40,527 bases of DNA from a virus, in IMG/VR virus record IMGVR_UViG_3300049793_000221, positions 1 to 40,527 of that record. One strand, 5' to 3'. Below, one piece after another: positions 2,110 to 40,527 of the stretch (the stretch's first letter is position 1; every line of letters starts with the position of its first letter). The notes below the pieces were generated by a model. It saw nothing but the letters and a program-made list of their open reading frames with translations, did not search any database and was not told the DNA's origin. The translations under genes were made by a program, and so were the position numbers.

Positions 2110-2158
2110 CCGGCTTTTTCTTCATGCCCGGAGGCAACGGTACTTCCCACGGTTTCAT
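2045..2158 (-). CDS. possible 37-residue basic, proline-rich peptide at end of late operon
   Basis: The stop of the 2,661-residue gene overlaps an ATG as ATGA, the same coupling seen throughout the late operon. This ATG opens a frame of 37 codons, rich in Lys and Pro (it contains PPGMKKKPVKKKP). It ends antisense to the last 65 bases of thyX. No family is recognised. The coupling argues for translation. The short length, and the fact that most of it lies antisense to or just beyond a real gene, argue against it. Confidence 0.4.
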   Translation of the reverse strand: MKPWEVPLPPGMKKKPVKKKPVRASETKPRTPVRSAR

Positions 2159-5100
2159 TGCAGGGCCTCCTTGGGAACCTCTACCCGCGTGGCCGGTTGA
2201 CCTGTCGCCACGCGGTACGAATACAGGGCCAGCGTGATCGCGTGCTCGCGCTTGGTCTTGAGTGCTTCTTCCTTTTGCGCACGTACGCTGGCGGCTAGCG
2301 TCTTATCGCGCGTGATCGCACCTTTCTCCTTGCGCAGCGCGCTGTCGGTATCGTCCCACGCCTTCCGCCACGCGAGCATCGCCACTTGTTGATCGCTGAA
2401 ATCGCGCTCTTTCACGTTGTAGGCTTTGAGCAAGTCGTCGGTCTTGCCTAGCGCCTCTTGGAACTGGAAGTAGATCGCCGAGTCCGAATAGCCGGCATAG
2501 ACCTGACTCCACAGCGCGCTCTGTGCGGGCTGACCCTTCGATTCCTTGTACGGATTTTCGATCAAGCCGTTGATGAGCATCGTACCCGGGCCGAGCGGGT
2601 AGCCGTGGATCAGCGCCTTGACTTCCTCGGGCGAGAGATCGAAGTGGAACGGCAAGTGTCGCAGGAAGATCGCGATATCCTTGTAGGTCGGCGAGACGTT
2701 CTTGCCGAACTGCTCCGAGCGATACTGCGTGGTGTCTTCGTAGTTGTCGCGCACCACCGGCGTGCCCCATGCGGTCTGGTTGAGGCCAACGGATACGATC
2801 GGCTTGGCCCATGTCGGCGCGAAGGTGACGAGGAACGCCTGTATCGGCCGGTTCGTCCAGTCGATGTTCGTATCCTCGATGGGCGAGATCACCGGCACCA
2901 GCGAACCGGACGTGAGCTTGCCCAGCGCTTCGCCGGGGGTCTGCTCCTTGGTCTGCACACCGATGAGCGCTCGCGCCATGCCGTTTGCAATGCGCACCGA
3001 GCCGAAGGCGAGCGGAATTTTAATCACGCCATCGCCGAACGGGATCAGTAGGTGCGTGTTCTTGACGAAATCGCTCTGCTCGTCGAGCTTGTTGCCGCCC
3101 TCGTCATCGTCCGCAAAGTGACGCGCAAGGGCTTGAACGCCCAACAGCGCGATCGTGTAGCCCACCAACCGGACCTGCCCGCGGCGTGTGCCGAGCGAGG
3201 CAAACGTGTTGATGCCGCTGGTGATCGACGGCTGGGCAAAGGCGTAGAGCGAGCTGATGTAGGCCGATGCCGCACCGCGCTTGCGGAAGTTCATCAGGTC
3301 GAGCACACCGGCGGCGGACTCCGCCGGGGAAACCCCGGCATCGCGCAGGGCGATATAGCCGGCGAGCGCCGGTCCCAGCTCGAACGTCCGGTTGTACTTG
3401 GCGATGAACTGCTTGAACATTCTGAGCTGCTTGGTGCCGCTCTGCTCGCGCAGGATCGCTTTCACCATGTCGGTGCGCGTGTAGGCGAAGCGATCGCCGA
3501 ACACGCTCGCACCGCCCAGCGACAGCAGCTCGTCGAGGTAGCGGGCTTCTTTAGAAGAATTAGAACTCATGCCGAAGCCATGCCGCCCGGTCGCCGAGAA
3601 CAGCGCCGCCAGCTTCGCCGGGTTGCCCATATACCACATCATCGCGCGACCGGCTTGGTTGCTGTCGATCACTTCGCCCTGTGCGTTGCGGTACACGCGC
3701 GTGCGCAGTATCTCGCTGCGATCCCAGAAGTCGCGGATGAAATTCTTGGGCGCGAACCACGGCGCAAGTTGCGTCGCGAAGTACGAGTAGACGCGCGTGA
3801 ACTGACTCAAAGAGGTCGTGAACAAGTTGTTCGCATCGCCCAAGCTCGCACCCCGGATATCTTCGAGCAGCTTCTTGTCACGCAGCTCGTAAGCCACGGC
3901 GCGGCCGTTACGACGGCGCACGATCGCACCGGCAGGCGGCGCGGCCCCGTGCCCGAGGTCATGACGGACAATGCCGGCTTCCTCGCGCTGTTCCCGTGTC
4001 ATACCGGCGTGCGCTTCGGCAATGCCGTCTTGGAAGTCGCGCCAGCCGGCGTAGCTCGCCGCCTTGAGCACCGCAGCAAACGTCGTGCTGATGCCATCGT
4101 CAGGGATCGAGGTCGTCCGGCCATCCATGCGGTAATCGCGGGCGACGTTCGGCTGGCTGCTGCCGTGGTAGAACAAGTCCTCGGTCAACGCGGTGTTCGG
4201 ATCGCCGGACAGCGGGACGTAGTTCGAGTGCACGGCGGCTTTCACTTCGGCGCGCTTGGCAACGAGCGCCGCTACCTTGTCCGCGTTCTCTGCCGTGGTC
4301 GTCGCGCCGAGATCGCGCAGCTCCTGCAGCAGCGGCAACAACCCGGGCTGACGCAGGAAGGTCACCGCGATCTCCGGCGAGGTCTTGCCGTTCTCGAGGT
4401 TGGTCGCCAGTACCCACGCGTTGAGATCGTGGACGTGCTTGGCGACGGCCTGCAGTTCGGTGACGTCGTACTTGGATTCGATCTCTCTCGCCAGTTGCCG
4501 CGCTTGCGCGTTGTTGAAGCCGCCGACACCGGCCACGTGCCGCTTGACGATCGTCTCCGGGTTGTTCACCGCGCGGCTGCGCTGCGTCAACTGGCGCACA
4601 GCAGCGCTCAACTCGCGCGAGGCAGCGGCCAATGCGGCATTGTGCTCGGCGGTGTCGGTCTCGGTCGGATGGGTAATGCCCGCGAATTCGCGTTCGAGGG
4701 TGGCGATCTGACGCTGCACGGCAAGCACCGCATCCGTGTCGCGCTGGATCAGCAGGGCGTTCGCCGCGGGGGCGCGCTGCGCCGTGATCCAGAAGCCGAA
4801 GTTGCGGCGGATCGTCTCGACCGTCGTGTTGTACTTGCTGGCGATGGCCGCGAGTTCGCGATTCATCGCTTGCCCGCCGTTGTTTTCCATCGCGTCATTG
4901 AGCCGGTCATCGCGCACGCCGGGGGCACGGCGCAGTGCACCTTCTATGCGATCGCGGAGCTGCTGGGCGACACCGGGGAGCGCGTTGATCCAGTCCTTGA
5001 CGTGGATCAGGTGATCGCCGACCTGCTCGTTGAGCCACTTGCCGGTGCCTGCCAGCGCGTGCCGCGCGGCCGACCAATCGCGACGCCGCAGCGCCTGTGT

Positions 5101-8100
5101 CAGCTCGTTGCTCGGCGAGGAGGGCGTCGCCGGCACGTTGTCGCGCACGTCGGTGTGCAACTGCCCGTAATCGTCGCGCGGACGCGGCAAGGCCGCATCC
5201 GGGGCGAACGGTTCGGCGGCTACCGTCTCTGCGGTGATCGTGTCCGGCAACGAGAACACGATATTGGCGAGCGATTCGTCGCTGGCGTCATCGGGCATCG
5301 AGAAAATCGTGTCGAAAATGTCCGTCTGCAACCCGGCATTGAGAATGGCTTGCCGTGCGTCGTCGGTGCGTGCGGCACGCAGCGAGTTCACGAGGGCAGT
5401 GAGCCCGATCGTGGAGGCGGTCGAGATGCGAGCCGTCGTGGGAGCCACGCCGCTACCCGGAACAAGCGTTGCCGCGCGCAGCTCTGGAAAAGAGTAAGAA
5501 CGGCTGCCGATGGAAATGCGCTGCGTTTCCGGGTTGAAAAGAATGGGTGCGCTGGCATTGCCTACCGTGGATAGCATGTAGCGACGGGCGCGATCCATGA
5601 CCAACTGGATTTGCGCATTCAATGCTTCCGCCCACGGCAGATTCTGACTCCTGATATTCGGCACGGCATCGCCCAACCCGACCGATTCAGTCGTCAGCGA
5701 ATGAACCGCATTTTCCATGTCGCCGGTGATAGCGCCCCACTTCAACATGGCACGCAACCGGTTGATGGGGATACGTGCGGAGTTGTCGGACGTGTACCCG
5801 CCGTTAGGCACTTGCTTGCGTGCACTGACCATCGCTCCGTTCACGAGATCGTAGACGAAGTTCGCAGCGCTCGATTCCCGCCCGTAGTCGTTGTTGCTCG
5901 ACCACGAACTTGTGCTGGCTTGGCCGCTATAAGGGAAGGCTCCGTAGTTGCCGTCGATATAAACCTTGACGCCATTGGCACCATGCGTCAGGCGAAGCCG
6001 ACCTGCGATCCGCGGGTACTGAGCGGGATCGTTCAGCGCCTGCACGCCGGCTTGCATCGCGGCGAGGAAATACGCGTTCTTTTGTGCAGCCGTGGCTGAC
6101 GCAGGAATCAACTGCCCGAGTGCGCCGACCGGACGCACACCGCGAACGTGTCCGCGATTGCGTGCGAAGTTCACGATAGCGTCGATGACTTGTTGTGAGA
6201 ACGTGCGGTTGGCAAGCGTACGTGCTTCGGCTTCCGAGCTGGGCAGCGCCGGGTTGGCCGCGGTTACCGTGCCTTGCTCGGCCGCACGCTGCCCTGCCGT
6301 CCGCTGTTGCTCCGCCGCGATCGCCGCCTGCTCTGCAGCGCGCCGTTCGGCTTCGCTCGGTGGCGCGGTCACGCGACGCGAGCTGATGGCGACCGGTACG
6401 CCGATCGGCACGGTGCCCCCCGGGATATCGCGGATGCCTTCCATGACCGACTGTGCGACCGCATCGCCCAGTTGGCGAATTTCAGGCAACGTCAGTCCCA
6501 GCGATTCCAAGAAGCGCGTGTTCGAGGCGTCTTGCTGATCGCCCGAGTTATTACGTCGCGGATAGAGCAAGGCCACGATGGGATTGTCGAACCGTACTTC
6601 GCGCCCGTTGATCGTGGGTGCGCTCACAACATGGACGCTCGACGGCAGTTGCACGTCGGCGAGTGCGACCTGCGGGCGGTTTGATGCAGTCGCTTCGAGA
6701 CGACCTTGGCTGTTCGCTACGATCTGCGGAATCCGAAGGATGGCCCCCGCCGGGGAATTGTTGCTGAGATCACGTGCCTGACTGCGAATCGAATCTGCCA
6801 GCAAGTCGATCTGCGACTGACTCATCCCCAGCGAGTGCAGCCACGCAACCGCGGCAGGACGCGTGTTCGATCGTGCGCCAGTACGTGCCAGATAGATCAC
6901 GCCGTCGATTGGATCGTAAAAACTAAGCTGCTGACCGCGCCCGCCGGCATTCCAGCGCATCGCGCGTACGGCCCGAGTGAAGGTCGCGGACACGGGCGTA
7001 CCGGCTAGCGAGTTAATGCGCACCGGTTCTTGCGCGACGGGCGTGAGGTTTTCGATTGGCGCTTGCTGCGCGGTAAAACTCGGCGGGTCCGGCAGGGGAA
7101 ATGCCGCCTCGAACATTTGCATCGTGGAGTTATAGCGCGCGAAGTCAAGCAGCGCGGTGCGCTCGGCATCCGTCAGCCGGTCGCCGAAACGCGACAGCTC
7201 CGCTTCAAGACTTTGAATCGGCGTGGCGTCATAACGAACGTCTTGCGCCACCGTGCGCAGATGATTGCGTTCGTCATCGGTGAGCGGTTCTGCAACCGGC
7301 TCTGTCGCCGCCGGCTGCTCTTGTGCAACCGGTGCGGTAGCTGTACCCGTGATGCTCGCATTGTGATTGACGGCCTGTGCGGCAATTTGCTGCAACACGT
7401 GCAGGATCGAACTCTCGCTGACGTTTGCACCCGGGTGCACCATGTTGAGCACGCGGCTGATCCAGCCGGCGATCGCATCGAGCAACGTGCGGTGCTGCGA
7501 TGGCCCTAAGCGATTCAACGCGCCCTGTGCACTCGCAGAGAGCCTGTGCACGTCAAGCGACGTGTTCGCCGCGAGCGCCAGCATTTCCGGCTTGACAAGC
7601 TCGGCAAACATTTCTTGAAGGTCGTGCGTTCCCCGTGTGTTGCCGGCCGCCTGCAGTTGCGCGAGCAAACCGTCTAGTAGCGCCTTCAGCTCTACCGCTT
7701 GCTGCTCGCCGCGCGCTGCTCGCGCAGTAATGTCGTTGAGCGCCCGCGACGTCAGCGAGTGGATGGTTTCGTGAAGTACCGTGTCGGCCGTGCTGGTCGG
7801 ATTGAAGCGCAGCGCGTGCGTCGCGGTGTTGTAGGAACCGAACTCCGTTCCCTGTTGCGGGCCGTAGCTCACGGTCGGCAGCGTCTGTCCGGTCTGCCGA
7901 TAGAGATCGAGCAAGTGCGCCGCGATGATCGCGTTCGCGTGCCCGGCTTCTTCCGAATTGTCAATGATGCTTTGCAGGATCGTGTGGATCGGCTGTTCGC
8001 TGCGCACGTTCGCCGCCCACACGGCATCCGGGTTGTCCTGCACCCGGCGATTGAGGCCCAGCTCGCGCACCGCATAGAGCAGCGGGTTGCTCTCGGGCGT

Positions 8101-10140
8101 GTGAATTTGCGAGCTATTGCGTGCCTGCTCCGTGAGGACTTGCTGCTGATCGGGCGTGAGAGTACGCACGGCGTCGCCCAGCTCTCGCAGCCCTTGGAAC
8201 CGGGTCGCGTCGTTGGCGAGCAAGCCCGGGATCGTTTGCTGCAAATTCGAGTTGATATGGGCGAGCTGGGTGATGGCTGCGGCCGTGTCGTGGACAGCGG
8301 CAAGCGTCACCACAGGTGCCGCTGGCGTTGCCACGACTGGTGCAGCCGGCGTCCCATTGAGCGTGGCCAGTGTCGTATCCGCGCTGGCGTTGGGCGTCTG
8401 CCCCTCGCCATAGGCCCACGTACCATCCGGGCCAACCACGAGCGTGCTGCCGGCCACAACCGTCTGCGTGCCCGGGATCGGGCGTGTCTCCGTGACCGCC
8501 GACGTGACGGCGGTAGCAGGCGGTGACCCGGGCGGCCCACCACGCCGGGTCGAGTGCGCCTCTACCGCCGCCACGCGGGCGTTCTGTGCTGCGATCACCG
8601 CGTCGGCGGTGTCGTTGGGCGTCTGGCCTTCACCGTAGGCGTAGCGCCCGTCTGCCTGCGGCTGCAGGGTGGCCCCTTCGATGGTGATCGGAGCCACCGG
8701 CGGGGCGGTCGTGTTAGCCTCTGCCTCCCGGTTCCGGATGATGAGGTCTGGCTCGGTCACTGCCGGCGTGACCGGCGGGGGTGCGAAGTGCTCCACGCCC
8801 GCGATCCCGACATGACCGCCCAAGCCGCCGAGCGCGCCGAGCGTGCCTTCCGCGCCAACCCCTTCGAGCAGCTTCTGATCGGGTGCGACCCCTTGCGCAC
8901 CGTAGTTCTGCGCGGCCCGGCCGATTCCTTCCTCGAAGCCCTCGTTGAGCGTAGCGCCCGCAGCGCGCAGCGTCGCCGCCAGCGCTCCCGGTGCCTTGGC
9001 GGCAGCGATCAAACCGCCGTGGCGGGCTACGGCGTCGGCGACGGTGCCTTCCAGCGACCCAGCTCCCGGGATGGCGCTGATGCCGCCGATGATCGCGCCG
9101 AGAATGCCGGCGGTGTTGCCGGCGTGCTGAGCCGCCTGCTCCTTGGCGGCTTCGACATTACCGCCGCTAGCCGCCAGCAGTGCCGCCCACTCCGGGTCTT
9201 TCGCCAGCTCGTCGGGCGTCATGGCCTTGACCGCACCGTAGGCTCCCGAACGTGCCTCGCCCGCCGTCAGGGCGGAGTTCAGCACCGCACCAGTGACCTT
9301 GCCGGCCGTCTGTGCCGCGACGAGCGCACGCTCTGCGCCGATGGCTCCGCGCAGGGCGATGTTGGTGCCGGTACCGACGCCCGCGGTCACCAGCAGCGAC
9401 GGCAGGACGTTGCCGACGACTTCGCCGGCTTGGCTCAGCGTGAAGTGTTTGAGCGTGCTGCTGGCTTCCGAGCCCAAGCGTTCGAGCGCACTGGCATCGG
9501 GCGCGATCTGGCTCTGCTCGAACTGGCTCTCGTTCGCTTGGTTTTTCTCGTAGGCCGACAGCGACTGGGCAATATCCTGCTGATCCTGCCGGAGCTGCGC
9601 CGCTTGTACGCTCGCGGGCGCGATCGCACCGACCGCCGATTCTGCCGTCGCTTCTAATCCCTTGCGCAAGCCCTTGAGCGGATCGGTGATGTTTTCCAAC
9701 AGTGACCGCTCGGGCTTGAGCGGAGCCGGGTTGTTCGTGCGCAACAACTGCGTCAGCTCGAACTCGTCGGCCTTGGGGTTGAGCTTTTTAGCACTGGCAA
9801 TTTGCGCGTCGAGGTAGCCTTGGTAAATTTTGTTTTGCTCGGAATACGGGAGCGCGTCGAAGCCTTGGGTAGCGGTTTTAACAGCCTCCCACTTCGGCAG
9901 CCCGGCGATCAGATCACCGAGCGGCATTGCTTCCTGCAAGGTCTGCTGCAGTTTCGTTTGCTCTTTGGCTTGGCTGATGAGCGAACTCACGGAGGCCAGT
10001 GCACTACCGCCGGCGCGGGTGCGTGGCGCGTCCAGCAAATCTTTCGGTTGCGCGATCGAGCCGAGCACACTGCGCAATTCTTTCGCGTAGTCGGGAACCT
10101 TCAAATCACCGAGGGCTTTTTCAAAGAGATCGTCGGTCAT
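2155..10140 (-). CDS. giant polyvalent ejection-type virion protein with HExxH metallopeptidase motif
   Basis: 2,661 residues, the largest gene here. Residues 240-450 are Ala/Gly-rich with hydrophobic helices. Residues 484-600 hold two copies of a module containing YGEGQTPN. HETIH at 790-794, followed by LQEMFAE near 841, is a zinc-metallopeptidase-like site. Residues about 1072-1144 and 1181-1253 look like a diverged internal duplication. A charged Ala/Gln-rich helix lies at 1262-1290. From about 2105 to the end the protein resembles the C-terminal domains of phage large polyvalent proteins (LPD38-like), including a membrane-like segment near 2325-2342. Such proteins are usually packaged and injected with the DNA. 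Its start overlaps the lytic transglycosylase stop as ATGA, placing it in an ejection module. Ejection and the peptidase substrate are inferred; most of the middle is unrecognised. Confidence 0.85.
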   Translation of the reverse strand: MTDDLFEKALGDLKVPDYAKELRSVLGSIAQPKDLLDAPRTRAGGSALASVSSLISQAKEQTKLQQTLQEAMPLGDLIAGLPKWEAVKTATQGFDALPYSEQNKIYQGYLDAQIASAKKLNPKADEFELTQLLRTNNPAPLKPERSLLENITDPLKGLRKGLEATAESAVGAIAPASVQAAQLRQDQQDIAQSLSAYEKNQANESQFEQSQIAPDASALERLGSEASSTLKHFTLSQAGEVVGNVLPSLLVTAGVGTGTNIALRGAIGAERALVAAQTAGKVTGAVLNSALTAGEARSGAYGAVKAMTPDELAKDPEWAALLAASGGNVEAAKEQAAQHAGNTAGILGAIIGGISAIPGAGSLEGTVADAVARHGGLIAAAKAPGALAATLRAAGATLNEGFEEGIGRAAQNYGAQGVAPDQKLLEGVGAEGTLGALGGLGGHVGIAGVEHFAPPPVTPAVTEPDLIIRNREAEANTTAPPVAPITIEGATLQPQADGRYAYGEGQTPNDTADAVIAAQNARVAAVEAHSTRRGGPPGSPPATAVTSAVTETRPIPGTQTVVAGSTLVVGPDGTWAYGEGQTPNASADTTLATLNGTPAAPVVATPAAPVVTLAAVHDTAAAITQLAHINSNLQQTIPGLLANDATRFQGLRELGDAVRTLTPDQQQVLTEQARNSSQIHTPESNPLLYAVRELGLNRRVQDNPDAVWAANVRSEQPIHTILQSIIDNSEEAGHANAIIAAHLLDLYRQTGQTLPTVSYGPQQGTEFGSYNTATHALRFNPTSTADTVLHETIHSLTSRALNDITARAARGEQQAVELKALLDGLLAQLQAAGNTRGTHDLQEMFAELVKPEMLALAANTSLDVHRLSASAQGALNRLGPSQHRTLLDAIAGWISRVLNMVHPGANVSESSILHVLQQIAAQAVNHNASITGTATAPVAQEQPAATEPVAEPLTDDERNHLRTVAQDVRYDATPIQSLEAELSRFGDRLTDAERTALLDFARYNSTMQMFEAAFPLPDPPSFTAQQAPIENLTPVAQEPVRINSLAGTPVSATFTRAVRAMRWNAGGRGQQLSFYDPIDGVIYLARTGARSNTRPAAVAWLHSLGMSQSQIDLLADSIRSQARDLSNNSPAGAILRIPQIVANSQGRLEATASNRPQVALADVQLPSSVHVVSAPTINGREVRFDNPIVALLYPRRNNSGDQQDASNTRFLESLGLTLPEIRQLGDAVAQSVMEGIRDIPGGTVPIGVPVAISSRRVTAPPSEAERRAAEQAAIAAEQQRTAGQRAAEQGTVTAANPALPSSEAEARTLANRTFSQQVIDAIVNFARNRGHVRGVRPVGALGQLIPASATAAQKNAYFLAAMQAGVQALNDPAQYPRIAGRLRLTHGANGVKVYIDGNYGAFPYSGQASTSSWSSNNDYGRESSAANFVYDLVNGAMVSARKQVPNGGYTSDNSARIPINRLRAMLKWGAITGDMENAVHSLTTESVGLGDAVPNIRSQNLPWAEALNAQIQLVMDRARRYMLSTVGNASAPILFNPETQRISIGSRSYSFPELRAATLVPGSGVAPTTARISTASTIGLTALVNSLRAARTDDARQAILNAGLQTDIFDTIFSMPDDASDESLANIVFSLPDTITAETVAAEPFAPDAALPRPRDDYGQLHTDVRDNVPATPSSPSNELTQALRRRDWSAARHALAGTGKWLNEQVGDHLIHVKDWINALPGVAQQLRDRIEGALRRAPGVRDDRLNDAMENNGGQAMNRELAAIASKYNTTVETIRRNFGFWITAQRAPAANALLIQRDTDAVLAVQRQIATLEREFAGITHPTETDTAEHNAALAAASRELSAAVRQLTQRSRAVNNPETIVKRHVAGVGGFNNAQARQLAREIESKYDVTELQAVAKHVHDLNAWVLATNLENGKTSPEIAVTFLRQPGLLPLLQELRDLGATTTAENADKVAALVAKRAEVKAAVHSNYVPLSGDPNTALTEDLFYHGSSQPNVARDYRMDGRTTSIPDDGISTTFAAVLKAASYAGWRDFQDGIAEAHAGMTREQREEAGIVRHDLGHGAAPPAGAIVRRRNGRAVAYELRDKKLLEDIRGASLGDANNLFTTSLSQFTRVYSYFATQLAPWFAPKNFIRDFWDRSEILRTRVYRNAQGEVIDSNQAGRAMMWYMGNPAKLAALFSATGRHGFGMSSNSSKEARYLDELLSLGGASVFGDRFAYTRTDMVKAILREQSGTKQLRMFKQFIAKYNRTFELGPALAGYIALRDAGVSPAESAAGVLDLMNFRKRGAASAYISSLYAFAQPSITSGINTFASLGTRRGQVRLVGYTIALLGVQALARHFADDDEGGNKLDEQSDFVKNTHLLIPFGDGVIKIPLAFGSVRIANGMARALIGVQTKEQTPGEALGKLTSGSLVPVISPIEDTNIDWTNRPIQAFLVTFAPTWAKPIVSVGLNQTAWGTPVVRDNYEDTTQYRSEQFGKNVSPTYKDIAIFLRHLPFHFDLSPEEVKALIHGYPLGPGTMLINGLIENPYKESKGQPAQSALWSQVYAGYSDSAIYFQFQEALGKTDDLLKAYNVKERDFSDQQVAMLAWRKAWDDTDSALRKEKGAITRDKTLAASVRAQKEEALKTKREHAITLALYSYRVATGQPATRVEVPKEALQ

Positions 10141-22695: not shown

Positions 22696-22850
22696 TTCTT
22701 GCGCCCGCAGCTCGCACAGCGCTTGACCAGCGGAGCGGGCTTGGTCTGCGACGCCCGGCTCATGTTGCCATTCTTGCCGATCGCCGGAGATGCTGACGCA
22801 CCGCTGCTCTTGCCGGCCCGGTTCGACGTGCTGCTAAAAGCCTTGTTCAT
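22692..22850 (-). CDS. 52-residue Ser/Lys-rich protein with C-terminal CxxC
   Basis: The frame is open further 5', but ATG at 22850 follows a GAGGG ribosome site and gives MNKAFSSTSNRAGKS. The body is Ser/Ala/Lys-rich and likely disordered. The last nine residues, RCASCGRKK, hold a CxxC within basic residues, like half of a zinc ribbon. It may bind nucleic acid or another small protein; no family is recognised. It is coupled to the next gene through GTGA. Confidence 0.5.
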   Translation of the reverse strand: MNKAFSSTSNRAGKSSGASASPAIGKNGNMSRASQTKPAPLVKRCASCGRKK

Positions 22851-22912
22851 GGTATTGCCCTCGGGTGGTGTTTGTGATAGCGCGTCTAGTCTCGCGCCGT
22901 GTCGCCTGAACG

Positions 22913-33407: not shown

Positions 33408-33688
33408 GAGGGGAACTCCCGTACGAGCGTGTCGAGAACGGCTTGGTATTTGCCGATATCTTGAAATGGCAGATCGAGCGCGATGGGCTCGTGCCAGTAG
33501 ATCACCCGGTTGCCGTTGACAATGCCGCCGGTGAGGAAATAGAGATTGCGCGTCTGGTTGTTCGCGCCTTGCAGCGTCAGGATCGCGGAGCCGTCGTCGA
33601 AGCCGGTGACGGTGCCCCATGCACGAAACGCAATGTGGTACAGCGCATCGTTTAGCTTGACCTCACGCCCAGCGACGATAATGCTCAT
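33404..33688 (-). CDS. conserved-looking small late protein after the portal
   Basis: 94 residues, beta-rich. It includes ALYHIAFRAWGTVTGFDDGSA, then RNLYFLTGGIVNGNRVIYWHEPIALDLP. I recall similar short proteins next to podovirus portal genes, but I cannot name a family. The start overlaps the portal stop as ATGA, so it is probably made with the portal. It could aid portal assembly or be a tail component. Confidence 0.65.
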   Translation of the reverse strand: MSIIVAGREVKLNDALYHIAFRAWGTVTGFDDGSAILTLQGANNQTRNLYFLTGGIVNGNRVIYWHEPIALDLPFQDIGKYQAVLDTLVREFPS

Positions 33689-35724
33689 GGCTGTATCCCG
33701 GGAACGGAGAGTTGCGAGTTGCCAGCGGGAGAGGCGACATTGGCAGACGGTACGTTACTGCGACCGTCGAGCTGGGGTACTTGCGGCCCGCCCGCGGTGA
33801 GTCCCTGTAGCGGCTGACTGGCAGCGACGGCGAGGGCCGAGTCGATCACCGGATCGCTCAAGCCGAGGGCGTCTACCGGGAAACCTGCCTGTTCCAGTAG
33901 TCTCCGGGTAGCGTAGCGCACCGCCTGTTCCGGCACAATCCCGTCCTTCGCCCCCTGCATCACGAACGACATGACGCCCGCCTCGCGCTTCTGGCGCTCG
34001 TCTTCTTTCAGCAGGCCGGTCATGCCGCGCACCAGCACGCCGACGTCTTGACCTTCGGCCAAATCGGGCTCGGTCTGCAGCAGATGATGGAACAACCCGG
34101 TGAACGCCGGCTCGATGAAGTAGGTGTCTTCGTTCAGTGCGGCTTGCTTGATCGTGCGCAGCGCATTGGACACGCGCTGGGTGTATTCGCCCAACGAGGA
34201 GCGACCGAAGTCTTGTGCACTGTAGGCAAACGCCGGAATGCCGCAGTCCTCATCCGCTTGGCGCAGGATCGCGCCGACTTGCGACATGAGCAGATGGTAC
34301 TGCGCCGACACCATGTTCATGCTGCGCACCGGCTCGGGCAGTGAACCAGACGTCGCGAAGCGATCCTCGACGTTGTACTGCCCGCCGGGAACAATCTGCG
34401 TGGCGTCGTTCGGATTCTCGAACACGGTTGGGTTGACCAAGCGCGGCGGGCGCGAGGCCCAGTCCGCGTTGTGCTCGAACAAGTGCATCAGCACATTCAC
34501 ACGTTGCTCGGAATCCCAGAGCATCGCGGCAAGACCGATAGAGTCGAGCAGGTTATCGCCGATCTTGGTGAAGGGCGCTGCGTAGTAAGAACGGTCGGCC
34601 CCGCCGGGCATCCGCAGCAGCTTGGCGCGGATCGTGCGGTTGCCGCAGACTTCAATGCGCGCGGATACATAGTCGAGTTGGTCGATGCCGGTGATGCCGT
34701 ACTCTTTGAGTTCGTCACCGGAGAAGAAGCCTTCGTGAATCAGCAGCGGAATCGTCTCATCGAGTTCCCACCATGCTTCGCGATTGCTGGGGTCGTTGTC
34801 GGTGTCGAGCCAGTTGCGCGTGCGATAGGCAAACTCGGTGAGGATATCCTCGATTTCTTTGGTGAAATAATCGTCCTGCCGCGCCATACCGATCAACTCG
34901 GCCTTGGTGACGTAGGTGTATTCCGTGTTGCCGGTGTTCGTCTGGTAGTCGATCGCATCGCAGACCGGATAAAAATCCACCGTGCGTACATGCCGAAACC
35001 ACGGTAAGGTTTTCCATTCCAGCGTGGCTTTCTTCCCGGCGTGCTTGAGCACCGCACGACGCTGCCAGTCGGGGAAGCGCATCACCCCGACGCCGGTCAG
35101 GATGCGGTCGAAACTGTAAGCGGAGTAGGCTTGACGGAACTGCCCCGCCACCATGACGTCGCGCATCCGGGTCTGTGCTTCTTGGGCGGAGTCTGACGCC
35201 AGACTGATGATGCGGGACAGCTCGACCTTGTGCAGCGCGCGAACGCGCTCGGCCAAGAAGTCTTCGATCCGTTGCGCCGGTTTGCCCTTCGCATCGAGCA
35301 GCAGTTGCGGATCGGCAATGCCGGCTTGCAGCATCTTCTCGGTCAGTTCGCGTTTCACACCGCGGCGAATGCGATCGAGACTGGACTTGTCGAGTTCCGG
35401 TCGCGGTGAGGGTGCGACGGTAAACATGGCGTCGAGGTTGTTGACGATGAGGTCGTTACTCCACGCCACTGTCGCGTTCACTTTCTGCTGCACCACACCC
35501 ATGTAGCGGGTCGGGCAAAAGCCGAACGACTGCTCAAGCATCCCGCGATCATCGTCGGTGTACTCACGACGGTACTGGGAGTTGGCACGGGAGAGGAGGC
35601 GGGAGTAGCTATTGCCTTGGTGGACGATGTAGCTGTCCCGATAGTCTCTGGCGCGGCGGTAACGGGTACAAACGACGTCCGCAAGGGTGTCGCGCTGCTC
35701 CACGGAGGTCTTTACATCAGCCAT
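33685..35724 (-). CDS. portal protein
   Basis: 679 residues, typical of podovirus portals. An N-terminal acidic and basic helix region holds RYRRARDYRDSYIVHQGNSY. A clip/stem-like middle has VTKAELIGMARQDDYFTKEI, then LIHEGFFSGDELKEYGITG. A helical crown region follows (SLGEYTQRVSNALRTIKQAALN), with a Gly/Pro/Ser-rich tail. ATG at 35724, preceded by AGGATA, is chosen over a longer frame starting at 35772. That longer frame would add 16 residues and run into the divergent ribbon-helix-helix gene. The portal forms the DNA gate at one capsid vertex. Between it and terminase lies the plus-strand mobile insert. Confidence 0.85.
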   Translation of the reverse strand: MADVKTSVEQRDTLADVVCTRYRRARDYRDSYIVHQGNSYSRLLSRANSQYRREYTDDDRGMLEQSFGFCPTRYMGVVQQKVNATVAWSNDLIVNNLDAMFTVAPSPRPELDKSSLDRIRRGVKRELTEKMLQAGIADPQLLLDAKGKPAQRIEDFLAERVRALHKVELSRIISLASDSAQEAQTRMRDVMVAGQFRQAYSAYSFDRILTGVGVMRFPDWQRRAVLKHAGKKATLEWKTLPWFRHVRTVDFYPVCDAIDYQTNTGNTEYTYVTKAELIGMARQDDYFTKEIEDILTEFAYRTRNWLDTDNDPSNREAWWELDETIPLLIHEGFFSGDELKEYGITGIDQLDYVSARIEVCGNRTIRAKLLRMPGGADRSYYAAPFTKIGDNLLDSIGLAAMLWDSEQRVNVLMHLFEHNADWASRPPRLVNPTVFENPNDATQIVPGGQYNVEDRFATSGSLPEPVRSMNMVSAQYHLLMSQVGAILRQADEDCGIPAFAYSAQDFGRSSLGEYTQRVSNALRTIKQAALNEDTYFIEPAFTGLFHHLLQTEPDLAEGQDVGVLVRGMTGLLKEDERQKREAGVMSFVMQGAKDGIVPEQAVRYATRRLLEQAGFPVDALGLSDPVIDSALAVAASQPLQGLTAGGPQVPQLDGRSNVPSANVASPAGNSQLSVPGIQP

Positions 35725-35739
35725 CGGGTGATATATCCT
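35711..35739 (+). promoter_or_regulatory. candidate sigma-70-like promoter for the plus-strand insert
   Basis: TTTACA at 35711-35716 and TATCCT at 35734-35739, with a 17-base spacer, lie just before the ribbon-helix-helix gene and overlap the portal start. The -35 matches consensus at five of six bases, the -10 at four. GGAG before the ATG at 35763 supplies translation. This is a pattern match only. Confidence 0.35.
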
Positions 35740-35762
35740 GTAGTTCCTAGATGGAGATAGCC

Positions 35763-35906
35763 ATGAACTCACCTCGCTTGATGCTTGTGCTACCTCCTGA
35801 ACTCAAGGCGCAACTCGAAGCCGAGAGTCTGCGCACGGGCGCGGCCCAAGCCGAGATACTACGCCGTGCTCTTGTAGCATACCTAGCTGCCCAGAGCAAA
35901 AGCTAG
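35763..35906 (+). CDS. ribbon-helix-helix (Arc/CopG-like) DNA-binding protein
   Basis: 47 residues. The strand-helix-helix pattern is clear: RLMLVLPPELKAQLEAESLR, TGAAQAEILRRALVAYLAAQ. LPPEL and the Leu/Ala-rich second helix fit the CopG/Arc family. Such proteins dimerise and bind operators through the N-terminal strand. GGAG lies seven bases before the ATG. Its TAG overlaps the GTG start of the endonuclease-like gene as TAGTG, so the two are coupled. It may control the insert or its neighbours (the divergent portal promoter region lies next to it); it could also be an antitoxin-like remnant without a toxin. Confidence 0.8.
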   Translation: MNSPRLMLVLPPELKAQLEAESLRTGAAQAEILRRALVAYLAAQSKS

Positions 35907-37435
35907 TGCGTAAGCACTACTGCCGACTTACCGCGGAGGAGTTCATTGCCAAGGCAAGAGCCGTGCACGGTGACTACTTCGATTATAGCCAGCTCGATTT
36001 TGTAAACCTGAGCACGAAAGTAAAACTGCTCGGCCCTGATCGAAAAGAGTTCTGGCAAACCCCTTACAACCATCTGCAAGGAAAAAACCCAGCGCTTCCA
36101 CGCGGAGAAGCGATACGCGCCGGCAAGAAAAAAGACGCCACCCTTTTTATCGCGAAAGCAAAAGCCAAGTTTGGTAATCGCTTCGACTACTCAGCGCTCG
36201 GCTATGTGAACTTTACTACTGCTGTCAGCATAGGTTGCGCAGAGCACGGGATTTTTTATCAGATTCCTCATGTGCATCTACGCTCTAAAGGATGCTCGAA
36301 GTGCAGTAAGCAAGCGGCTGGATTACGGCGCGCTGAAAAACACGGAGCAGACTTCGTGAGCGCTGCTCGCGCCGCGCATGGCTCCCGCTACGACTACAAG
36401 AGCAGCAAATACGTCAATGCAAAAACACCGTTGACTATTAACTGCAAAAAGCACGGGGATTTTTCACAAACCCCGGACGCTCACATAAACGCAGGCTCGG
36501 GCTGCCCTGATTGTGGCTTATCGCAAACTAATAGCTCCAAAGGGGTAGATGAACTGTCTGCTTTTCTCAATCTAGAAGTAGTAAAAGAGAAAAGAATCCC
36601 TGATAGCTTAGGACGTGTTGACTTATTCTTGCCGGATTCAAAACTGGCTATCGAGTACCACGGGCTCTACTGGCATAGCACCGGGCGTTTGGATAAAGGC
36701 CGCACTCAAATAACGAGTATGCACAAGATGAAGCGTCTCGCCTGCGAAGCTGCTGGCTGGCGATACATCGCTATCTACGAGGATGAGTGGCTTTATCGTC
36801 GCGCCCTTTGCGAGAGCTACCTGCTCAATCAACTTGGCCTAGCGGAGAGAGTACATGCTCGCAAGTTGACGGTGCAAAAAGTAACTGCCAAGCGTGCTCG
36901 CACCTTCTACGAGAGGCATCACTTCTTGGGCGCTTGCCGCGGTGCGCATATGGGCCTGTGGGAAGCGGGAGTGCTAGTTGCCTGCATGACGCTAGGCGCA
37001 AACACAGAGCGTCGTGGCACTACCAATAGCCAAGTGCTCTGCCTGTCTCGCTACGCCACTGATGGACGCTGCATTGTTGGAGGTATGAGCCGGCTGTTCA
37101 AGGCGCTGCTTGAGGCGGCAGGAGAGATATCTAGTGTGGTTAGCTACATAGACCTCGACAAATATCAAGGCAAGAGCTATGCGATGCTCGGCTTCACGCC
37201 AGTAGCTGAAATAGAGCCTGACTACTGGACAATCTGGCCTGTGAAAGGACGCCGTGCTGGTGAGCGCCGGCACAAAACGGCAACGAAGCGCAGCAACTTG
37301 GAAAAATTGCCTGATTTTCGTGCAGAGGAATCTGAATTCGAGAATACGCAGCGCATGGGGCTGTTCCGCATCTACCACTCTGGCCGACGCAAAGTAGTTT
37401 TAACCCCACGCCCCACCCGGGCCTTTGTTGGCTAG
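35906..37435 (+). CDS. homing-endonuclease-like protein (zinc-finger-like repeats, Vsr-like domain, acetyltransferase-like C-terminus)
   Basis: 509 residues, GTG start overlapping the previous stop. Three N-terminal repeats (about 11-60, 80-133, 149-203) follow the pattern F..KA...HG..FDY...YVN. Copies 2 and 3 keep CxxH...CxxC (C111/H114/C130/C133 and C180/H183/C200/C203); copy 1 has lost these. Residues about 215-300 are Vsr/EDxHD-like: GRVDLFLPDSKLAIEYHGLYW, with D239, E250, H252, and later YEDEW. Residues 322-440 resemble the GNAT-like part of phage endonuclease proteins (FYERHHFLGAC, GGMSRLFKALLE). The ending GLFRIYHSGRRK is also typical. The gene is less GC-rich than its neighbours and lies on the opposite strand, ending 36 bases inside terL. 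It is likely a mobile gene that cuts DNA lacking it. Confidence 0.85.
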   Translation: MRKHYCRLTAEEFIAKARAVHGDYFDYSQLDFVNLSTKVKLLGPDRKEFWQTPYNHLQGKNPALPRGEAIRAGKKKDATLFIAKAKAKFGNRFDYSALGYVNFTTAVSIGCAEHGIFYQIPHVHLRSKGCSKCSKQAAGLRRAEKHGADFVSAARAAHGSRYDYKSSKYVNAKTPLTINCKKHGDFSQTPDAHINAGSGCPDCGLSQTNSSKGVDELSAFLNLEVVKEKRIPDSLGRVDLFLPDSKLAIEYHGLYWHSTGRLDKGRTQITSMHKMKRLACEAAGWRYIAIYEDEWLYRRALCESYLLNQLGLAERVHARKLTVQKVTAKRARTFYERHHFLGACRGAHMGLWEAGVLVACMTLGANTERRGTTNSQVLCLSRYATDGRCIVGGMSRLFKALLEAAGEISSVVSYIDLDKYQGKSYAMLGFTPVAEIEPDYWTIWPVKGRRAGERRHKTATKRSNLEKLPDFRAEESEFENTQRMGLFRIYHSGRRKVVLTPRPTRAFVG

Positions 37436-38845
37436 CAAATGCCGTAGCCGACGCCCGTCGTACTGCTGAATGACCTCTTGACCGCGCCCTTGTAGCCGCT
37501 GGCGCGAGGAGTTCGAGGGTTCCGAGAGCGCATCGGCCAGCGCCTTCGTCGCGAGGGCGTCGTTGTAATGGCTCGTCCAATCGTGGGCTGGATTTTTCGA
37601 CATGACCTTACGTTCGCGATCGAACACAAAGCGGTATTGCTCGAACGCCGCGAGTACGAACGCACAATCATCCATCGGATCATCTACCGGCGTGTCACTG
37701 ACGTTGATCTCCATGCGCCGGATCAGCTGCGCGCTCGCCGCGATACTGTCTTGCTTGCTCACGTTCGGCATCCGGTCAAAATGCACGCCGAGTTTCTTCG
37801 CGGTTGCCATACGACCGACACCGTTCGCGCCCCACTCGCGCTGCACGATATCGTGCGGCCCGAAATGCTTGCGGTAGTAGTAGCGTTTGTTGGCGAGTAT
37901 CTCTGCGTAGTGCTCGATGCCGGTGTCTGTGGACGCGTACCAGTCGAACAGGCGCTCGATGTTGCCCACCGTCTGCCAGAACAGGATCACGTTGGTGTCG
38001 CCGACGCCGATATCCCACGACGTATCGACGGCATAGCGTGGATCGTAGACCAGCGGGCGTGCGCGGCCACTCTCGCGCAGCTCACGCAGTTCTTGGGAGA
38101 ACACACTGCCGATGATCGCGGCTTCCCAGCGCGAGAGATACTCTTGCTCAAAGAGAGAATTACCCAGCGCCGACCCATAGAGGTCGATGTAGACCTTGCG
38201 TTCGAGGGCGAGCTGGATCGGCGAGAAAATGCCGGTGTCTTCGGCCGAGAGCAATTCAGCGAAGCCGTTAGGATCATTTTTTATCAGCTCGAATAGTTTG
38301 TAAAAATGATTCTTGCCGCGTGTCGAGCTGACGTGTACCGACCAGCCATTATTCTCGATGAGGATCGGGCGGAAGAAACCGTAGGCATTCGGATTAGCGA
38401 GTGCGGCTTCCGACATGGTGATGCCGACCGGCGTAGTGCCAACAAGGGATTCGTAGTTGTCGGAGCCGAGCACTTGCCACGAACTATCGTTCTGGAACGT
38501 CAGCTTCATGCCTTGGTTATCGACGTGCTTGATGATCTCGTCGGGGAACGCATCCTTCCAGCGAAGGCGTCCGGTGCGCGGATTGACCGCCTCCCAAATC
38601 GCCTTACGGGCCTGCTCTTGCTGCGGCAGCATGTGCCAGTAATTGCCGGCGCGATCCATCGCCTTGATCGCGGCATTGTGCAGGGCGATCTCGTCCTTGC
38701 CCGCGCGCCGGTGCCACGCGAGCACGACAGTGTTGATCGCCTCGGCGAGTGGTCGCGGCGTCGGCGGGTTGAGCGCGTTCCACGCCTTGAGCTGATGGGG
38801 CGCGGGCTCCCAGCCGAATGCCGGTAGCGTGACGGAGCGGCTCAC
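37400..38845 (-). CDS. terL: terminase large subunit
   Basis: 481 residues. GTG at 38845 overlaps the upstream stop as GTGA and starts before the ATPase; a longer open frame is an out-of-frame shadow of the upstream gene. The ATPase Walker A-like loop is WHRRAGKDE (44-52). Walker B-like ITMSEAA is at 142-148, with Ser where Asp is usual but the catalytic Glu146 kept. The coupling motif SSTRGKNHF is at 173-181. Nuclease features are D278 in SWDIGVGD, D393 region PMDDCAF, and HDWTSHYNDAL (421-431). It cuts and pumps DNA into the procapsid through the portal. Its 3' end overlaps the plus-strand endonuclease-like gene by 36 bases. Confidence 0.92.
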   Translation of the reverse strand: MSRSVTLPAFGWEPAPHQLKAWNALNPPTPRPLAEAINTVVLAWHRRAGKDEIALHNAAIKAMDRAGNYWHMLPQQEQARKAIWEAVNPRTGRLRWKDAFPDEIIKHVDNQGMKLTFQNDSSWQVLGSDNYESLVGTTPVGITMSEAALANPNAYGFFRPILIENNGWSVHVSSTRGKNHFYKLFELIKNDPNGFAELLSAEDTGIFSPIQLALERKVYIDLYGSALGNSLFEQEYLSRWEAAIIGSVFSQELRELRESGRARPLVYDPRYAVDTSWDIGVGDTNVILFWQTVGNIERLFDWYASTDTGIEHYAEILANKRYYYRKHFGPHDIVQREWGANGVGRMATAKKLGVHFDRMPNVSKQDSIAASAQLIRRMEINVSDTPVDDPMDDCAFVLAAFEQYRFVFDRERKVMSKNPAHDWTSHYNDALATKALADALSEPSNSSRQRLQGRGQEVIQQYDGRRLRHLLANKGPGGAWG

Positions 38846-39474
38846 GGCACCGCAGGCGGGGTCGCGCCGATCTGCAGCCAGTAGGAGGCGCAGCGCAGGT
38901 CGAAGGTCAGCGTGAGATCGGGTGACTGGCCGGTGGCTAAGATAATGCCGGAGCTGTCGATGAGGTAGATATCTTGCGGGTCGGCGGGTGCCGGCGAGGC
39001 CAAGGTCACCGTGAGTGTGTCGGTGAGCACAGAGTAGGACAGGGCCAGCCCCTCGGGCACCGGTGGGTCGAGCGTGAGCAGGTAGGTGCCCGGGGTCGGC
39101 TGGGTGACATGGAACGCGGCCACCACCGGGATCGTGTCCCAGTCCGGCTGGGTATCGGGCTCGCAGCACTCGATGCTTTGTTGTGTCGCCCCGGTCGGCG
39201 TGTGCGTCGGAACGAACGCGATCGGCGGGCAGACGTTGAGGTAGACGAGGGTCGAGTAGCACCCGCAGTCGGACGTCAGCGCCAGCGTGTAGACGCCGCG
39301 GGGGGCGTCGTCGGGGATACCGGTGAGCGCGACGTCGCCGGGTACGGTCTGCGTGGGCGGCGTGAGGGTGATGAGCGGGTGGTCGGGCCGGGAGAGGGTC
39401 GCCGCGGTGATGATCTTGGCACAGGACGGCAGGCGCAGGCGGAGCGTGGGGTTGGCGCAGGCGATCACATACAC
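38842..39474 (-). CDS. hypothetical beta-rich Cys-containing protein before terL
   Basis: 210 residues, mostly beta strand with Pro/Thr turns, including VYTLALTSDCGCYSTLVYLN, then SIECCEPDTQ and LTLTFDLRCASYWLQIG. It may contain two Ig-like or fibronectin-like units, but no clear match. It starts with GTG one base after the upstream stop. With Cys-rich composition like other virion proteins here, it could be a capsid fibre or decoration protein. No link to terminase function is visible. Confidence 0.6.
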   Translation of the reverse strand: MYVIACANPTLRLRLPSCAKIITAATLSRPDHPLITLTPPTQTVPGDVALTGIPDDAPRGVYTLALTSDCGCYSTLVYLNVCPPIAFVPTHTPTGATQQSIECCEPDTQPDWDTIPVVAAFHVTQPTPGTYLLTLDPPVPEGLALSYSVLTDTLTVTLASPAPADPQDIYLIDSSGIILATGQSPDLTLTFDLRCASYWLQIGATPPAVP

Positions 39475-39709: not shown

Positions 39710-39872
39710 AGAGGTGCCTGTTGGCGGTGACGAAACGCAGGGTGTGGTGCTTGGGTCGCGCTTGCGCGCAGTTACACAGCACTACAAACGTAGTTTGGGT
39801 AGGCAAGTGCACGAGCGTCATCCCGGTGAGGATGCGGACGGCGCTAGACAAGGGTACTGGGGTCGGGGTCAT
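39630..39872 (-). CDS. possible small protein between terS and the CPCC gene
   Basis: 80 codons from ATG at 39872, or 63 from an internal ATG at 39821. The larger form begins inside the terS 3' end. A plausible soluble core (TLVHLPTQTTFVVLCNCAQ, then RPKHHTLRFVTANRHLYG) is followed by a Pro/Ala-rich tail that overlaps the next gene. Neither start has a convincing ribosome site. No family is recognised. Confidence 0.35.
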   Translation of the reverse strand: MTPTPVPLSSAVRILTGMTLVHLPTQTTFVVLCNCAQARPKHHTLRFVTANRHLYGLPAPAPRRADPAPETPPASPDQPV

Positions 39873-40347
39873 GTTCGAGGGCGGGGTGCTCGATCACCGT
39901 GGCGTTGGCGACGCGGTTGGAGGTTGGGATTGGGGTTGAGGCGGGGTCGTCGGGCGTGGGGAACGCGCGCACGAGGATGGTGAGGGGGCCGCCGTTCGCG
40001 CCGGTGATCTCTTGCTTGTCGCCGAATACCGAGCGCCGTTTGGCCTTGATGAGTAGCGCGAGGAGCGTGTCGGAGTATTGCACTTCCTCGTCTACTTTGG
40101 CCCCTTGGTAGTACACGCCTTTTGGTACGCCGTCGATGGCGCGGCGGTGGACCTCTTGCTCGATGCGATCGGCGGCGGTTTCCGTGGCTTCGCGGAGTGC
40201 TTCCTCGAACTCGATGGATTCTGCGGTAAGCATCTCGATACGTTTGAGTGAGACGCCAACGGCCTTGGCCGCTTTGTTCACCATGCCGTGTGCGGCGACG
40301 TGATCCAGAAAGGTCGGAATCCACCGATCGGTGGCTAGGGCGTTCAT
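39844..40347 (-). CDS. terS: terminase small subunit
   Basis: 167 residues from ATG at 40347 (a TTG three codons earlier is also open). The N-terminus is a helix-turn-helix-like region (FLDHVAAHGMVNKAAKAVGV...RIEMLTAES). The middle has the standard small-terminase pattern: HRRAIDGVPKGVYYQG, then YSDTLLALLIKAKRRSVFGDKQE. It binds the packaging start site and loads the large subunit. It is the first gene of the late operon seen here; terL follows after three small genes. Confidence 0.88.
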   Translation of the reverse strand: MNALATDRWIPTFLDHVAAHGMVNKAAKAVGVSLKRIEMLTAESIEFEEALREATETAADRIEQEVHRRAIDGVPKGVYYQGAKVDEEVQYSDTLLALLIKAKRRSVFGDKQEITGANGGPLTILVRAFPTPDDPASTPIPTSNRVANATVIEHPALEHDPDPSTLV

Positions 40348-40527
40348 GGGGTTCAAGGGTAGGCCGGGTAGTGGTGTGCCGTCAAGGGTAGGGGGTTATA
40401 AGGAAAGTACAAAAAGGGTTTTGCAGTTGGCAGATGGCAGTTGGCAGTTTAGGTGGGCGAAAAAAAAAAAAAAAATTCATCGACGTGTGTTTCAAAATCC
40501 GGGGGGTCCGCAACCCCGGTACGGGGG
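40348..40527. other. non-coding region upstream of terS
   Basis: No gene is visible in these 180 bases. TTATAA at 40396-40401 could serve as a -10 for the late operon, but no good -35 accompanies it. Four copies of a 7-bp unit (GGCAGTT, two with one or two changes) lie at 40422-40449. A run of 16 A lies at 40460-40475. CCGGGG (40499-40504) pairs with CCCCGG (40514-40519). This is where a packaging site or late promoter might be, but the sequence ends here. Confidence 0.6.
40422..40449 (+). repeat. 7-bp tandem repeat, four units
   Basis: Units read TGCAGTT, GGCAGAT, GGCAGTT and GGCAGTT in a row. They also contain a perfect 11-bp direct repeat, GCAGTTGGCAG, separated by three bases. Such repeats may be slippage products or binding sites near terS. 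Confidence 0.85.

Follow-up and report, generated by a model that had tools for sequence, protein, structure and literature searches.

The window analysed here comprises a whole IMG/VR virus record (40,527 bases) and carries between its terL and portal genes a two-gene insert in which a gene for a small ribbon-helix-helix (RHH) protein directly precedes a gene for a Hef-like homing endonuclease. With moderate confidence, this insert is interpreted as a self-contained mobile homing cassette, whose RHH protein would repress the promoter shared by the two genes, with the nuclease being made in a burst on entry and then turned off. A mobile homing cassette is the simplest reading because of the anatomy of the locus, the empty alleles in related phages and the family membership of the nuclease. 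Its observed basis consists of the two genes, their overlap, an intact nuclease core, the empty alleles, a foreign composition and the recurrence of the pair elsewhere, from which we infer junction cutting, homing, promoter activity and repression by the RHH protein. The family of free-standing homing nucleases is already known; what is added here is an RHH gene that precedes the nuclease.

The late genes of the phage lie on the minus strand (terS at 39844–40356, followed by terL, the portal gene and more beyond), and the RHH and nuclease genes are placed between terL and portal, antiparallel to both (Table 1). The RHH ORF runs from an ATG at 35763 to a TAG at 35904–35906, with GGAG at 35753–35756 as its Shine-Dalgarno sequence, and the nuclease ORF starts with a GTG at 35906 and stops at 37433–37435, sharing one base (TAGTG) with the RHH stop codon; the gene coordinates and the overlapping codon given in the initial annotation are thus exact by ORF inspection. 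The final residues of the nuclease are encoded opposite the C-terminus of terL. The same annotation held these to be the only plus-strand genes of the late region, which is borne out by the tiling of minus-strand ORFs, since uncovered gaps of more than 150 nt are so few, being confined to 22696–22912, the insert and the right end. The first of these is the sole other interior stretch of the late region above that length that is devoid of a minus-strand ORF. Elsewhere in the late region, a protein of 2661 aa encoded at 2155–10140 carries an LPD38 (large polyvalent protein) domain (E 5e-22).

Table 1. Features of the insert, its candidate control region and its flanks, in positions of the window.
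Feature	Position	Strand	Evidence or remark
Whole insert, lying between portal start and terL stop	35725–37399		1675 nt; not in L001, L003, L005
Candidate sigma70-like promoter, TTTACA-17-TATCCT	35711–35739	+	-35 within first portal codons; sole candidate in 35600–37600, both strands
12-mer TGATATATCCTG	35729–35740	+	once each in window and L002; portal strand reads CAGGATATRTCA
RHH (CopG/Arc-like) protein, 47 aa	35763–35906	+	Pfam RHH_1 (E 0.0012), model, leave-one-out profile
Hef-like homing endonuclease, 509 aa	35906–37435	+	PHROG 559, PHROG 3339, phage matches
FDYS repeat 1 (residues 12–59), no zinc ligands	35939–36082	+	sequence
FDYS zinc-finger-like repeat 2 (residues 80–134)	36143–36307	+	C111 H114 C130 C133, kept in at least 90% of 53 relatives
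FDYS zinc-finger-like repeat 3 (residues 149–205), DUF723	36350–36520	+	Pfam PF05265, 25 bits against a cutoff of 20.9
EDxHD/Vsr-like nuclease core (residues 212–310)	36539–36835	+	D239 E250 H257 H273 K276; 3r3p match
Mom-like GNAT domain (about residues 313–445)	36842–37240	+	H339 R382 D416 Y425; Foldseek to Mu Mom
Antisense overlap of 36 nt, 3' ends of nuclease and terL	37400–37435	+	ORF coordinates
Portal/head-tail connector, one target flank	33685–35724	-	PHROG 332 connector (E 6e-10)
terL, other target flank	37400–38890	-	PHROG 2 terminase large subunit (E 8.7e-17)

Five close relatives (L001 to L005) were obtained from a terL search. In L001, L003 and L005 the terL–portal junction is empty, with terL ending in AWG* and its stop codon overlapping or abutting the portal start; in L001 the junction reads GGGGCTGATGGC, the terL stop overlapping the portal start, and L003 and L005 have its equivalents. 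The window keeps both the terL stop and the portal start, with the insert in between, and because the empty relatives have nothing at the junction, the RHH and nuclease genes both belong to the insert. The initial annotation had regarded the pair as a mobile insert and proposed this comparison, in which three relatives were found without either gene. L004, a distant relative, shows neither overlap nor insert; its junction (about 2281–2400) is occupied by an AT-rich non-coding stretch of approximately 120 nt. In L002 the junction is occupied, in the same orientation, by a Hef gene whose product is 42% identical to that of the window, with an RHH ORF of 64 aa lying 16 nt upstream. The terL of the window is 66–69% identical to those of L001, L002, L003 and L005, and its portal is approximately 71% identical to those of the three empty phages, as compared with 64% for the occupied L002, so that phage lineage alone does not account for which junctions are occupied; the insert has moved or been lost. 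The nuclease gene has a GC content of 52.5%, against 60–61% in its neighbours, and a GC3 of 56%, against 75–77%, which points to a foreign origin.

The nuclease is assigned by family similarity to the Hef-like free-standing homing endonucleases, which were reportedly described by Sandegren et al. in 2005. Its match to PHROG 559 spans residues 6–498 (E 8.6e-78), PHROG 3339, a “homing endonuclease” family, is matched with an E-value of 9.8e-56, and 885 phage records match the protein, 135 of them with coverage of at least 80%; to annotated Hef-like phage genes the identity is 33–35% over 96–97% of the length. When viral contigs were scanned directly with only the window nuclease as query, no matches resulted, the Hef loci described below having come from alignment-based scans, and genome contigs yielded a single relative, distant and partial. 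F-LimIII, F-LimVII, F-LimVIII and F-LimX of LIMEstone are likewise Hef-like free-standing homing endonucleases (PMC3296691). Enzymes of this kind are free-standing and lie next to conserved phage genes, as here, but no RHH gene was found upstream in the five phage isolates with Hef-like genes that were inspected, whereas in the window it leads the operon.

The N-terminal part of the nuclease was initially described as three FDYS-type repeats, and these are present as described, the first without the C..H..C..C ligands and the second and third with them (C180, H183, C200 and C203 in the third). The adjacent nuclease core, annotated as Vsr-like, is upheld by profile and structure and can be specified further as an EDxHD homing-nuclease fold: a profile of 53 relatives matches I-Bth0305I (PDB 3r3p, “Mobile intron protein”) over the core with an E-value of 7.5e-8, while the Pfam Vsr match is under its cutoff (E 0.16). 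D239, E250 and H257 are kept in all 53 relatives, H273 in 50 and K276 in 51, and the examined core residues, whose loss had been named as a possible refutation, are intact in the window. I-Bth0305I shares the EDxHD core; it differs in having been deposited as a mobile intron protein, whereas the window nuclease is free-standing and carries zinc-finger repeats and a Mom-like tail.

This tail, initially called GNAT-like, also stands by profile and structure. It is termed Mom-like because phage Mu Mom (8bv8) is the best PDB match found by Foldseek (E 2.0e-6) for the AlphaFold2 model of the nuclease (pLDDT 87.6); hhalign to the single Mu Mom sequence gave an E-value of 4e-4 with a probability of only 34.5%. 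H339, R382 and Y425 are kept in 53 of 53 relatives and D416 in 52, and S395, which aligns with Mom S124, is poorly kept (27/53). The residues equivalent to R382 and Y425 presumably matter in Mu Mom. The domain possibly represents a DNA-modifying activity within Hef-like homing nucleases.

The partner protein had been annotated as a 47-residue Arc/CopG-like protein, an identification sustained by a match to Pfam RHH_1 slightly under the cutoff (19.1 bits against 20.5) together with the fold matches of its model (pLDDT 86.6), the best of which in the PDB are all RHH proteins (3ft7, CopG, CdbA and Arc), each individually weak (probability at most 0.96, E 0.17 or worse). The modelled monomer shows two helices, the strand not being assigned. 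By tblastn, the protein matches one from a Sulfolobus spindle-shaped virus (E 2e-4), and the same list contains another record that is annotated as a CopG-like repressor. The RHH fold fills about residues 3–45, so that the protein scarcely exceeds it.

Four alignment-based scans of viral contigs yielded Hef loci, with 218 distinct ones seen altogether. Among approximately 185 distinct loci counted with usable upstream sequence, an RHH ORF lies directly before the Hef start in four (the window, L002, L171 and L283), from which it follows that Hefs usually go without an RHH partner. The search for the pair elsewhere that the initial annotation had suggested thus found it at the same site in L002 and at different sites in L171 and L283, which are unrelated phages where the pairs adjoin other late genes; ORF inspection shows all four pairs to be antiparallel to the flanking late genes. 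A statistical preference of paired Hefs for this orientation (P 0.017) was set aside, since the automatic assignment of orientation behind it proved incorrect for the window and L002. The L171 protein (49 aa) exceeds the RHH_1 cutoff (29.1 bits, E 8.7e-7) and its gene overlaps that of the Hef by 4 nt, the L002 protein scores 20.3 bits against the cutoff of 20.5, and the L283 protein (52 aa; 20-nt overlap) has a weak RHH match of 13.3 bits. With regard to chance, the L171 ORF was the top untrained match among 16,512 ORFs, prior to its use in any profile, leave-one-out RHH profiles ranked the partners of the window, L002, L171 and L283 second, first, first and second of 23,540 ORFs, and ORFs whose end lies at most 30 nt from a same-strand Hef start make up only 0.3% of the total. 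In a quick tree of 154 Hefs (LG+G4), the window and L002 nucleases are sisters (SH-aLRT 100) and those of L171 and L283 lie elsewhere, with the paired state changing at least three times.

A similar arrangement is found at L364 (1646–2915), where tandem RHH-like ORFs of 43 and 58 aa lie 6 nt before a GIY-YIG nuclease with repeat domains (PF01541, E 1.9e-6); the second has a weak CcdA match (E 0.0059) and the first matches no RHH family. Based on these sequence matches, the arrangement is suggestive of an RHH theme wider than Hef; relatives of the GIY-YIG nuclease in which the pairing could be checked were too distant or absent. The GIY-YIG gene adjoins a divergent, highly repetitive nuclease of the DUF723/DUF4379 type. 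Divergent RHH-like ORFs beside DUF723 nucleases in L206/L207 and in L364 were not counted as pairs, the nuclease part being another one and the RHH ORF facing away, and an RHH-like ORF in L071 was unrelated to any Hef. A search of cultured phages with the four RHH peptides brought up no pair and nothing but further RHH regulators, chiefly those of archaeal viruses; the one match examined for a neighbouring Hef had none. A search of the open-access literature gave no account of a homing nuclease accompanied by an RHH gene, and absence there is not proof.

A candidate sigma70-like promoter lies directly before the RHH gene, and the sole such site within 2.3 kb of L002 (7523–7495) is in the same place; L171 has TTGACA-17-TATTGT at 2778. 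Promoter-like matches are no commoner than chance, and since approximately one is expected by chance per scan, it is only the position of the site that is suggestive. The 12-mer TGAYATATCCTG is common to the window and L002 (7511–7522), where it sits beside the portal start in the end of each insert that faces portal, with the L002 insert having TGACATATCCTG at the equivalent end; it was not found in L001, L003, L004, L005, L171 or L283. From its sequence and placement, it could be an operator, a portal ribosome-binding site or a sign of shared descent. Inverted repeats in the promoter regions before the RHH genes were no better than those of shuffled sequence, and this included CATATC-16-GATATG in L002, which looks attractive as an operator but was rejected as evidence after this comparison.

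The main rival to the homing cassette is an R-M-like reading of Mom–nuclease fusions, which we consider unlikely and according to which the insert would be a weapon, with the Mom-like domain modifying the phage's own DNA, the nuclease attacking unmodified DNA of competitors or the host, the RHH protein acting in a controller-like manner and mobility being secondary. The near-invariance of H339, R382, D416 and Y425 in the Mom-like domain is in accord with it, and the domain fits a modification role that homing leaves unexplained. Iyer et al. (2021) described jumbo-phage proteins in which a Mom domain is joined to a REase-fold nuclease, a feature shared by the window nuclease, and predicted an R-M role for such fusions (PMC7824862); their paper makes no mention of homing, RHH, MetJ or DUF723. 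Mom activity in the window nuclease is, however, putative, and the counterpart of Mom S124 is not conserved. Homing genes typically show the features seen here, being present in or missing from one exact junction, foreign in composition and scattered over sites that adjoin conserved late genes. The controller proteins of R-M systems delay nuclease expression (PMC3874152), but they are helix-turn-helix proteins, whereas the partner here is an RHH protein. The RHH repressors Omega and PaaR are encoded by the first genes of the toxin-antitoxin operons that they repress (PMC3874152), which is a precedent for the repression proposed in the homing-cassette model, and all of these resemble the present locus in that the gene for a small DNA-binding protein lies with or before a dangerous one, although none of them governs a homing nuclease. 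The weapon and homing readings are not exclusive and can both hold.

As for the RHH gene, it is highly improbable that its product is an antitoxin-like inhibitor binding the nuclease protein directly: RHH antitoxins are common, the gene overlap is as in type II toxin-antitoxin pairs and VapB26 is a distant PDB match, but the window protein has no toxin-binding tail of the type II antitoxin kind, the partners (47–64 aa) have little beyond the RHH fold, their sequences are only 20–34% identical to that of the window as against a single nuclease architecture, and the majority of Hefs have no such partner. The closeness of the portal and RHH starts, only 38 nt apart, and the shared 12-mer just upstream of the portal gene in the window and L002 could instead mean that the RHH protein mainly controls the divergent portal and late region, offsetting the break that the insert makes in terL–portal translational coupling. 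This is very unlikely, since the L171 and L283 pairs adjoin other genes and lack the 12-mer, and the RHH gene leads the nuclease operon in every pair; an effect on the portal gene would in any event be conjectural. There is likewise little to commend a hitchhiking or decayed regulator with no role in the cassette, to which the small minority of Hef loci with an RHH gene and the repeated changes of the paired state on the tree might point, given that passengers would hardly be expected to recur independently in one and the same place, tightly overlapping the nuclease gene, and that the GIY-YIG nuclease of L364 has a similar arrangement.

Of the possible roles of the small RHH gene, that of a dedicated repressor giving expression in a burst on entry is the likeliest. 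In the homing-cassette model, the zinc-finger repeats of the Hef-like endonuclease would recognize the insert-free terL–portal junction and the EDxHD core would cut it, following which recombination repair would copy in the 1.7-kb insert. Lying antiparallel to the late operon, the cassette would probably be driven from its own promoter, which the minimal RHH protein, as the product of the first gene of the operon, would bind and repress, allowing a burst of nuclease upon entry into a new genome, followed by a shutdown that spares the host phage. I-TevI, which represses its own promoter (PMC2988022), offers a precedent for limiting the expression of a homing nuclease in the way proposed here, but I-TevI is its own repressor, whereas the present model assigns that task to a separate small protein. 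More tentatively, free-standing homing endonucleases from more than one family (EDxHD/Hef and GIY-YIG) may have repeatedly and independently acquired dedicated RHH repressors as a regulatory module, an entry switch with which the cassette could lie antiparallel inside essential late operons and do the phage no harm.

Homing endonucleases are usually viewed as single selfish genes, whose expression is governed by surrounding genes, by RNA structure or by the nuclease acting as a repressor. Judging from the absence of both genes in close relatives and the recurrence of the pair in unrelated phages, some selfish nuclease genes may move together with a regulator of their own, and a dedicated, separately encoded regulator recurring beside such nucleases would add a further layer of control, comparable to that provided by the controller proteins of R-M systems. 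The proposed reading predicts, in a testable manner, when homing genes are on, and it suggests how they may persist in opposite orientation inside essential structural operons.
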